From: Leptogranulimonas caecicola | GTDB lineage: Bacteria > Actinomycetota > Coriobacteriia > Coriobacteriales > Atopobiaceae | Direction: 5' to 3' | Assembly: GCF_023168405.1 (NCBI RefSeq) | Contig: NZ_AP025285.1 | Span: 124,001-188,000, forward strand | DNA: 64,000 bases | Shown: positions 6,789 through 18,767 of the stretch, piece after piece | How positions within the stretch are numbered: the first letter of the stretch is position 1 | Layout: each line of letters begins with the position of its first letter | Position numbers and translations under genes: made by a program | The notes under the pieces: model-generated | What the model was told of the DNA's origin: nothing | The model's input: the letters and a program-made list of their open reading frames with translations, nothing else | Databases searched by the model: none

Positions 6789-6904
6789 GCTTCCATCTGA
6801 TCAGTGTAGTGGGCGGAATGAGTTGGCTTAGAATCTGCGACCAACACACACAGATGTAAGCACCCAAAATGAGGTACCCTTGTGCCAACTGCATATCATC
6901 GCAA

Positions 6905-7125
6905 CCCGAGGGCACGGTTCGAACAGCTGCTTGCTTAGTAGATTAATAAGGAACCCGGTTAGAGTCCGGGGCAGCCGCCACTACTGTGTTCGGGCAAAGG
7001 CGCGGGCGCATTCCCATTGGGCGCAAGCTCGAGAAGGGGCCCGCACTGGCGGTGCGTACCTGCGTAGGCCGCCACCCGTGAGTCAGGAGACTTGCCTGTC
7101 CTCGATAGGTTCGACCGTCCTGGGC
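6905..7125 (+). promoter_or_regulatory. Cobalamin (B12) riboswitch
   Basis: The conserved B12 box is clear at 7081-7096 (AGTCAGGAGACTTGCC). Upstream are the other hallmarks: AAGGAACCCGGTTAGAGTCC at about 6947-6966, followed by GGGGCAGCCGCC and CACTACTGTG. Boundaries are approximate. It precedes the two DUF4430 surface-protein genes at 7256 and 9404, so adenosylcobalamin or a related corrinoid should repress them. Whether control is by termination or by blocking the ribosome site cannot be told by eye. Confidence 0.92.
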
Positions 7126-16010: not shown

Positions 16011-16670
16011 GTGCTGCCTTTTTTGCTGCTGATCGCAGGCGTGCTCTATGTGATAGGCGAGTCCTTTGCCTTCAAGCCCATGTCTCGGCTTGCGCAGGTG
16101 GGCATCCCCACCTATTCCATGGTCATGGCGTTGGTGACGCTGGTACGCGATCCCTCGCAGCTGCCTTGGCTGGCCGTCGTGGCGCCGGTAGGGGTACTTA
16201 TCGGTTGGCTGCAGACCACCCATGTGCAGGTGCGGCTCACCGGAGTTGCCGACAAACACCGCCGTCGCACGGTGGAAGTGCGCCGCGGCTGGACCTACGC
16301 GCTGGGGTGGGCGCTGGTGTTTGCGGCGGGCATCGGCTTTCACGGGGTGCTGCAAGGTGCCATGCCCTGGGATGAGATCCTGGAAGATCTAGCTAAGGAT
16401 GTGGAGCGGGATCTGTTCACGATACTGCTGTTTACCTCGGGCTTGAACTGGTATGTCTACGCGCTCTCGGGAACTGCGGGCTACACCTACGCGCTTATCC
16501 TGCGGCTCACCAACATCCACGTGGCCGAGGCGCTCCATGAGGCGCCCCGCCGTGTGCACGGAACGCTGCGCGTCGCGTACAGCCCCGTGCAGCGTCTGGT
16601 GGATTGGAGCTGGCGGCGTAGGGGAGAGGCGCTGGACAGCGATGCCGAGACCCCTGCGGAAGAGCAGTGA
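16011..16670 (+). CDS. Predicted multi-pass membrane protein
   Basis: 219 residues from a GTG at 16011 preceded by GAGAGGA. Hydrophobic segments lie near residues 2-18, 30-45, 52-67, 95-115 and 130-165, so four to six helices. A basic, charged tail (W-R-R-R-G-E-A, then acidic) is probably cytoplasmic. I do not recognise a family. It follows asnS by 187 bp on the same strand and ends at a bidirectional terminator. Confidence 0.65.
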   Translation: MLPFLLLIAGVLYVIGESFAFKPMSRLAQVGIPTYSMVMALVTLVRDPSQLPWLAVVAPVGVLIGWLQTTHVQVRLTGVADKHRRRTVEVRRGWTYALGWALVFAAGIGFHGVLQGAMPWDEILEDLAKDVERDLFTILLFTSGLNWYVYALSGTAGYTYALILRLTNIHVAEALHEAPRRVHGTLRVAYSPVQRLVDWSWRRRGEALDSDAETPAEEQ

Positions 16671-16683
16671 GATGAGAAATGAA

Positions 16684-16717
16684 AAACAGGGATAGCTTAG
16701 GGGGGCTATCCCTGTTT
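16684..16717. terminator. Bidirectional terminator
   Basis: Perfect 13-bp stem AAACAGGGATAGC (16684-16696) with its complement (16705-16717), loop of eight. A and T runs on each side let it serve both the membrane-protein gene and the convergent surface-protein gene. Confidence 0.88.
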
Positions 16718-16762
16718 AAAACAATGAAATGCTAAAGCCTGGGCCTAGAGTGCGTTATAAGC

Positions 16763-18618
16763 CTACAGTCCCATTTTGTCTGCACCATAAGTAGCTTGCT
16801 CTGGAGTGAAACCCTCGTAGATCAACTGATCGATGAGGCCACCGCGAGAGAAGGACATGAAGCTAAGGTAGGACTTGGCTTGCTTCACAGCCTGCTCGTT
16901 CCAATCGGCGCCGCAGTTGTCCGCAGCATAAACCGCTTCCTCATGGCTGTACTTTTCATATTCGAGTTGCTTGATAAGTCCGGTGTAAGAGAACGGCATA
17001 GTCTTGAGATAGGAAAGTGCGGTACCCAACGCGTTCTTTTCTCCCTTGGTGGGAATGCGTTTGAATACAGGGTCTACAGTGAGGTTGGAAGTGACGTTCG
17101 CAGTAGATACACTCCAGCCCTCAAAGGTATAGCCATCTTTTGTGGGATTGCCTTTAACTGAGGCAGACTGCCCATTATCAACCTCAACAGTTGCAAAAAC
17201 GCCGCCGTTGCCATCAGTGAAGGTAACGGTCCATACAGGTTTATAAACAGGCTTGATGGTGAGATTGCTCTTTACGTTGGTAAGAGAAGTGTCCCATTTT
17301 ATGAACTTATAATGATCCATAGCAGGAGGCTCAGGTGCTGTTGCTGCGCCACCTTCCTTGACCCATTCCTTCTTGATCTCGTTGCCATTCCCATCAAGGA
17401 ATACAACTTCATAAGCAGTCGTGTACTTCGCGGTTATCTTGGTGTCACCTGTGATATTTGTGATGTAGTCACCGTCGACTTTTGCTGGTTTGACGGGTTC
17501 CCAACGGTCAAACGCCTTGCCTTCAACTTCGGGCGCTTCGGGCACTTTTACAGAGGCGCCCTGCCCAAGATCCCAAACTATCTTCTTCTCAACGGTTTTG
17601 CCTTCAGCCTCAAAAGTTGCCGTGTGGGTAGGTGCATCGATTGAAAGGGAGTCAACCATGTTTTGGATAGTTGCTTTAAGCCCTGGAGAAAGCGAGTCGG
17701 GTGTATAGAACACAATGGTTGAGAAAATATCCCCAAACACTGTTCCATAAGCCACGTAGGAACCCTGATCGGAGGATCCACTGGCAGTAACGCAGTCTTG
17801 GGATCCCAGTTTGACGCTAGCCCATTTTGTTGTATCAGACGCATTGATCTTCACGCCTGGAAGAAGGTAGGCGCCTTGAAGCTCTTCGACGCCTTCAGCA
17901 AATGCAGACTTGTAATCTGAGCTAGAAGTTAATGCAGGGGTGGCTCCCTCGTAGGGCACAGTTCCTGCGACAATCTTAATATTTTAAGAAGTAGTATCGA
18001 GGCGCATAGTGGAGAGCCCGCTACCACTGTTTCTAGTTGACCATGAGTCGGGATGCTCAACTTTGTAGCCAAACATGTTGCTTGAAGCATCCAAGCTCTT
18101 GGGAGCCACGCAGCTCACAACAGAAATAATAATGATTAAGGCAATGAGTATTGCTGCGCCAATGAGTATCGGTTTGCGATGTTTACCTAAGGGTTTAGTA
18201 AGTTTGGCAACATTTTTAGTCAGTATATCTTTGAGAGAGCTGGAGGCATAGCCGTTGCTAGTGCTGTGTCCCGCGGTAGAAGAGTCTTCTTGCTGGAGTG
18301 TTCGAACAGCCTGATCGTCATCGATAACCTGGATGTTTTTCTCGGCTTCCGAGCCTGTGCCATCTGGAGGAGTGGCCATCGCAGGCTCATTATTTGTAGG
18401 AGCTGAGGCTTCGTTAGTCTCTTGATTCTCATCAAAAACTTCTGAGACATGATTGTTTGCAGGTTCATATCCGATTTGAGTAGGGGTTTGCTCAGTTGCA
18501 ATGGGTGCAGGCTCGTCTTGCGTTGAAGAGCTTGCTGTATCTTCGTTGATAATTCCTAGGCTTGCTTCATTTGTCGGGGGGGGGGGGTCTCTTTAGGATC
18601 ATTGATGAGATCGCTCAT
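16763..18618 (-). pseudogene. Disrupted surface protein: TM, Listeria-Bacteroides-type repeats, two Ltp domains
   Basis: One long gene broken twice. It starts at ATG 18618 (GAAAGGA upstream). A run of 12 C on the coding strand, 11 codons in, shifts it to a stop; 10 or 13 C would restore the frame (E-A-S-L-G-I-I-N onwards). A second break is an in-frame TAA at 17984-17986, with the same frame open on both sides. Restored, it is about 618 residues: acidic N-terminus, a membrane segment (I-L-I-G-A-A-I-L-I-A-L-I-I-I near 165), an extracellular domain, InlB/Listeria-Bacteroides-like beta repeats (F-D-R-W, Y-K-F-I-K-W, T-F-E-G-W with V-T-F-T-D-G-N-G) and two C-terminal Ltp-type lipoprotein domains (F-S-x-x-G-L-I-x-Q-L). 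Ltp domains are known from phage superinfection-exclusion lipoproteins and many actinobacterial surface proteins. GC is clearly lower than in the neighbours, suggesting acquisition. Confidence 0.75.
18576..18587. repeat. Twelve-G homopolymer tract (candidate phase-variation switch)
   Basis: An uninterrupted run of 12 G on the + strand lies inside the 5' coding region of the surface-protein gene. With 12 the frame closes shortly after; with 10 or 13 it continues for over 200 codons. Such long tracts vary in length by slipped-strand mispairing. Assembly error at the run is possible. Confidence 0.85.
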
Positions 18619-18767
18619 GGAAATCCTTTCAAATTGCAGAGAACTGTAATTATCAAAAGATAATAGTTCAGAGTGATTAAAGCAATGAGAGTAGAGACTG
18701 AAAAATAGTCTGTTCGTCCTTTAATATGTAGTTCACTTTATGGGTCTTAAAGCCAAAAGGAGATCTC

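Follow-up and report, generated by a model that had tools for sequence, protein, structure and literature searches.

A 12-C tract near the start of a null Ltp surface-protein gene in Leptogranulimonas caecicola and recurrent G/C tracts at Ltp genes of other Coriobacteriia

Introduction

Switching by homopolymer tracts is a familiar phenomenon in mucosal proteobacteria and in the pili of bifidobacteria; a literature search found no description of it in Coriobacteriia. Here we analyze a gene of Leptogranulimonas caecicola, a member of the Atopobiaceae (Actinomycetota, class Coriobacteriia), that encodes a predicted surface protein with paired Ltp domains (hereafter the Ltp gene) and contains a run of 12 C close to its start codon. 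The gene is located in a window of 64,000 nucleotides (bases 124001-188000 of the 2.0 Mb single-contig genome), whose positions are used throughout. We consider it likely that this locus is an accessory single-gene cassette coding for a membrane-anchored protein with InlB-type repeats and Ltp domains, a slipped-strand ON/OFF switch by descent, with length variation of the tract predicted from the sequence, and that the sequenced allele is now null.

The Ltp protein of Streptococcus thermophilus phage TP-J34 (PF07553) blocks injection by other phages via its repeat domain, which probably contacts the tape measure protein (PMC3952083). The protein described here resembles TP-J34 Ltp in having paired Ltp domains at the C-terminus, in the predicted surface exposure and in being anchored in the membrane. 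However, it is larger and chromosomally encoded, contains InlB-type repeats as a spacer and, in place of the lipid anchor, has a single transmembrane segment (residues 151-171), so that it departs from the TP-J34 type in both anchor and location; no prophage genes are evident in the open frames neighboring the Ltp gene. CwpV of Clostridioides difficile is a host-encoded, phase-variable surface protein for which exclusion-like phage resistance has been measured (PMC4737114). It provides a functional model for a switched Ltp protein, as an analogy that implies no homology; CwpV is switched by RecV-dependent DNA inversion, whereas slippage is proposed for the Ltp gene. In the sortase-dependent pili of Bifidobacterium breve UCC2003, the switch is slippage at a G tract, with cultures containing approximately 37% G11 and 60% G12 (PMC9187656). 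In both cases, an intragenic 5' G/C homopolymer is found in a surface-protein gene of a gut actinobacterium and its length decides whether the body of the gene is read. The differences are that length variation and its effect were measured in B. breve and are predicted from sequence here, and that the target is a pilin in B. breve and an Ltp/InlB-repeat protein with an additional nonsense codon in L. caecicola. By analogy, phage exclusion would be the favored role of the Ltp protein; alternatively, it may serve in adhesion or have another role at the cell surface.

The start, the poly-C tract and the reading frames

The features that define the reading frame of the Ltp gene are as follows.
16763..18618, minus strand: surface-protein gene, beginning with the ATG and ending with the stop codon at 16763-16765; the tract frame and a TAA interrupt it
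18624..18629, minus strand: Shine-Dalgarno-like AAAGGA, 5 bases ahead of the ATG, recognized from the sequence
18576..18587, minus strand: 12-C homopolymer at codon 11, proposed as the slippage switch; with 12 C the frame is closed
17984..17986, minus strand: in-frame TAA at about codon 210-212, where even the ON frame ends; the frame is open on both sides

The original prediction placed the start at 18618 with a good ribosome site and assigned the choice of frame to the 12-C run, and both the coordinates and the frame logic proved correct. The start codon occupies 18618-18616, and the tract begins at nucleotide 32 of the gene, after ten codons including the ATG and a single A. At 12 C, the length in the assembly, the frame closes after 20 codons. 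Addition of one C yields 211 open codons and a run of 10 C yields 210, both extending to the TAA, whereas 9, 11, 14 or 15 C lead to a stop within 16-21 codons. The Ltp gene thus has the hallmark of homopolymer phase-variable genes, a 5' coding tract whose length sets the frame. This tract is the sole run of at least 9 of any base within the window and the longest of the eight G/C runs of at least 9 in the 2.0 Mb genome, the next being 11.

Translation might instead start downstream of the tract, at the ATG at 18379, which would place the tract in the 5' untranslated region and leave the TAA as the only relevant lesion. This ATG is in the open frame and the resulting product (open reading frame 17984-18379) would retain the transmembrane segment. 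We nevertheless regard such a start as very improbable given that a clear Shine-Dalgarno sequence is absent at 18379, whereas 18618 has AAAGGA and an AT-rich upstream region (33% GC); that the frame is stop-free all the way from the tract; and that, in the closest architectural relative (see below), the tract lies between a Shine-Dalgarno-bearing ATG and the protein body.

With translation beginning at 18618, the 12-C run would be reached at codon 11, and polymerase slippage at the run would shift the downstream frame in or out, resulting in reversible ON/OFF expression; neither MutS nor NucS, which might damp it, was detected. MutS (PF01624) was recovered from none of 25 genomes, namely this genome, 20 relatives across the order and the four genomes with tracts at Ltp genes that are described below. 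NucS (PF01939) yielded no match above the cut-off in 21 genomes (this genome and the 20 relatives), with two weak partial matches elsewhere; both families were recovered in control genomes. With MutS undetected and NucS not above the cut-off, slippage at the 12-C run should go uncorrected, as at the pilus G tract of B. breve. Even where present, NucS leaves one- or two-base indels unrepaired (PMC11551767).

Domain architecture and relatives of the Ltp protein

The presence of beta repeats and Ltp domains, proposed in the original prediction, is borne out by Pfam searches with the 406-codon frame downstream of the TAA (P0001), which match Lipoprotein_Ltp in two stretches (2.2e-31) and the Flg_new/InlB-type repeat in three (6.6e-18).
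18107..18169, minus strand: the one transmembrane segment recognized by hydropathy, at residues 151-171 in the ON frame
16766..17983, minus strand: open frame after the TAA, P0001, with the InlB-type repeats and Ltp domains, the predicted extracellular part
17105..17230, minus strand: best-scoring of the three Flg_new/InlB-type stretches, residues 252-293 of P0001
16916..17041, minus strand: Ltp domain 1 (PF07553), profile match at G000:C1:140916-141041
16775..16906, minus strand: Ltp domain 2 (PF07553), profile match at G000:C1:140775-140906

The protein accordingly belongs to the Ltp family (PF07553) with its paired repeats, and P0001 also matches a solved structure in the PDB, 4eqq (4.9e-12), of a putative host cell surface-exposed lipoprotein. 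With 12 acidic and 10 basic residues, the Ltp pair has a slight acidic excess, at best a weak likeness to the acidic repeat surface by which TP-J34 Ltp is proposed to act on the tape measure protein. The 150 residues ahead of the transmembrane segment form an acidic stretch, and no match to a known family was found for the N-terminal half.

The best relatives with the same layout come from other Coriobacteriia: L006 of Raoultibacter timonensis, L185 of genome G008 and L258 of genome G343, the last being the closest in architecture (43% identity over 309 residues). All are membrane-anchored like the protein described here, combine InlB repeats with an Ltp pair and, unlike it, have no stop interrupting the body. 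L258 shares with the Ltp gene a homopolymer near the start (10 G, codon 8) and differs in having a lipobox-like signal after the tract; L006 differs in that it has a zinc ribbon at the start and lacks a tract. Relatives are also encoded on 36 viral contigs, and those of Gordonia phages are annotated, by annotation only, as lipoprotein or superinfection exclusion. At G114:C10:74471-75012, the Ltp domains are divided between two open frames, apparently another broken Ltp gene.

The interrupted body of the gene

Apart from the TAA, which is flanked by open frame on either side, as noted in the original prediction, the ON frame contains no stop, whereas stops in the other two frames number 5 and 16 upstream of the TAA and 10 and 28 downstream. 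Given that the frame is otherwise intact and includes full Ltp and Flg_new domains, any decay of the gene would be recent. Owing to the TAA, the ON product would consist of 211 residues, approximately 40 of which extend beyond the membrane segment, and would lack all repeats and Ltp domains. A working truncated, membrane-anchored ON product, as originally proposed, is therefore doubtful. The sequenced allele is OFF by tract length and, in addition, carries the later nonsense codon, so that the full protein is made in no phase. The TAA probably arose while the gene was OFF and selection could not act on mutations further downstream, a scenario that would also set the order of the two lesions. 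In the sequenced allele, no tract state gives a functional full-length protein; intact relatives are found in other genera. The Ltp gene of L. caecicola is thus a broken allele of what probably was once a phase-variable gene.

The two inactivating lesions in one gene also fit an ordinary decaying pseudogene, that is, a transferred gene that was frameshifted at a fortuitous poly-C run, acquired a nonsense codon and never had a switch in its tract. We consider this explanation unlikely, and the more than 600 codons that are otherwise intact, with conserved domains, argue against it, as do the tracts at other Ltp genes described next.

Tracts at Ltp genes of other Coriobacteriia

We searched the 65 Ltp frames of 64 loci in the class, many of them in draft or metagenome assemblies and with the window gene excluded from the count, for a G or C run of at least 9 within 150 nt of the frame start. 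Such runs, 9-12 in length, are present near the start of four frames from four genera compared with an expectation of 0.094 derived from 615 kb of flanking sequence (Poisson probability 3e-6). Two of these tracts are intragenic and leave the gene out of frame in the assembly: the 12 C in codon 10 of the gene for a short Ltp protein in G022, the only G/C run of at least 9 in that genome, and the 10 G in codon 8 of L258 in G343, whose product shares the repeat-Ltp architecture described here and whose tract is located between an ATG with a Shine-Dalgarno sequence and the protein body. The other two precede the ATG of the respective Ltp gene: 10 G, 41 nt upstream, in Collinsella provencensis (one of three runs of at least 9 in this genome), and 9 G, approximately 75 nt upstream, in G058. 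For the tracts in L033 and L116, a promoter-spacer role is at most hinted at, by one near-consensus -35 element, TTGACC, in L116. In a comparison set of 115 Ltp frames from genome_contigs and viral_contigs, mostly from other phyla, no run of at least 8 was found except for the one in Collinsella (4/65 vs 0/114, Fisher p 0.016).

Tracts are thus a recurrent feature of related genes, as is typical of phase-variable families. On the coding strand, the tracts are poly-C in some and poly-G in others of these otherwise similar genes, which points to independent origins. The occurrence of tracts at Ltp genes at approximately 40 times the expectation, together with the position of the run at codon 11 in L. 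caecicola, similar to that of the independent tracts in other Ltp genes, is not expected of a pseudogene with a chance run. For the slipped-strand switch that was originally proposed, the outcome is mixed: the recurrent tracts at Ltp genes and the failure to detect mismatch repair speak for it, and the sequenced allele, being null in any phase, speaks against it.

More tentatively, and with less confidence than for the single locus, we propose that Coriobacteriia, apparently without MutSL and NucS, repeatedly place G/C homopolymers at the starts of chromosomal Ltp genes, so that a switching minority within clonal populations would express a phage-exclusion protein at the surface, a counterpart of CwpV that acts by slippage and evolved several times. 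If this is true, the link between tracts and Ltp genes in genomes without detectable MutS or NucS would suggest that phage exclusion, or another surface role of Ltp proteins, is costly enough to hedge. The tract pattern across the class is more interesting than the window gene, itself a broken example, and G022, G343, Collinsella provencensis and G058 offer loci for direct measurement of tract length and phage sensitivity.

Evidence against a switch and the survey of long runs

Several observations weigh against the interpretation of the Ltp gene as a slippage switch. Because of the TAA, the sequenced allele would make no Ltp protein even in the ON phase. No length polymorphism was observed, and a second allele was not found in searches of genome_contigs, viral_contigs and plasmids: viral_contigs contained no allele of the same species, no plasmid copy was detected, and the scan of genome_contigs returned distant relatives only. 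The 300-nt zone in which tracts were counted was set after the first three cases had been seen. Across the family, in a survey that counted one match per run, poly-C runs of at least 10 are not enriched at the starts of secreted-protein genes (2/68, p 0.35). Finally, the tract length and the TAA in the assembly could be errors.

The last point amounts to a distinct explanation, under which the true run has another length, or the TAA is miscalled, or both, and the gene is intact and constitutively in frame. Homopolymers of this length are hard to read, and the deposited G11 of B. breve turned out to be a minority of the population (PMC9187656). We judge this explanation improbable: even if the run was miscounted, it would remain a hypermutable coding tract, so that the switch would survive the correction; a finished genome is unlikely to contain two unrelated errors within one gene; and tracts of this kind put two other Ltp genes out of frame.

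The family survey also showed no enrichment of long poly-C runs at sites that combine a Shine-Dalgarno-preceded start with a long frame, and several of the long runs surveyed are uninformative, being located at contig ends or next to stretches of N. Without general enrichment at gene starts, a single tract could be due to chance and is weak evidence alone; that most long poly-C runs of the family lie away from gene starts fits the pseudogene explanation as well. Individual runs in the survey are placed at large secreted-protein genes: L349 (G087) and L360 (G088), from the same family, have 14 G and 10 G, respectively, within the first 45 codons, and in L360 the run is at codon 7, right ahead of the signal peptide, and out of frame. 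In locus L159/L184 (G035:C1:1274348-1274358), in a single-contig genome, a surface-protein-like gene with more than 450 codons has an 11-C run a short distance upstream of its ATG.

G343, which belongs to the same order and a different family, contains 43 G/C runs of at least 9 in 2.7 Mb. Among the 39 runs examined, eight are at the 5' end of secreted-protein or lipoprotein genes, compared with 1% of control positions (p 7e-9). The respective loci, L279, L291, L296, L300, L303, L384, L390 and L394, are candidate phase-variable surface proteins.

Genomic context and distribution in the genus

The comparison within the genus involves one sister species, G001, in which the neighbors flanking the Ltp locus are 92-94% identical at the DNA level and the Ltp gene is missing, indicating that the gene is accessory in the genus.
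16635..18765, no strand: segment present in this genome, 2.13 kb in place of 128 bp of other sequence between the same neighbors in G001
16684..16717, minus strand: terminator-like hairpin with 13 pairs and a T-rich tail, directly 3' of the gene, a consensus match

Both sides of the 2.13-kb/128-bp difference have sequence of their own, so that either state may be the older. The low GC content from which transfer was originally suspected is confirmed (48% in the gene vs 61% across the window), as is the accessory distribution, and these properties fit both the cassette that we favor and a transiently acquired gene on its way to becoming a pseudogene. Terminator-like consensus sites are about equally numerous in shuffled sequences; the one at 16684-16717 has a long stem at the expected place. 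Elsewhere in the window, a cobalamin riboswitch is found at 6897-7113 on the plus strand (Rfam RF00174, 79 bits).
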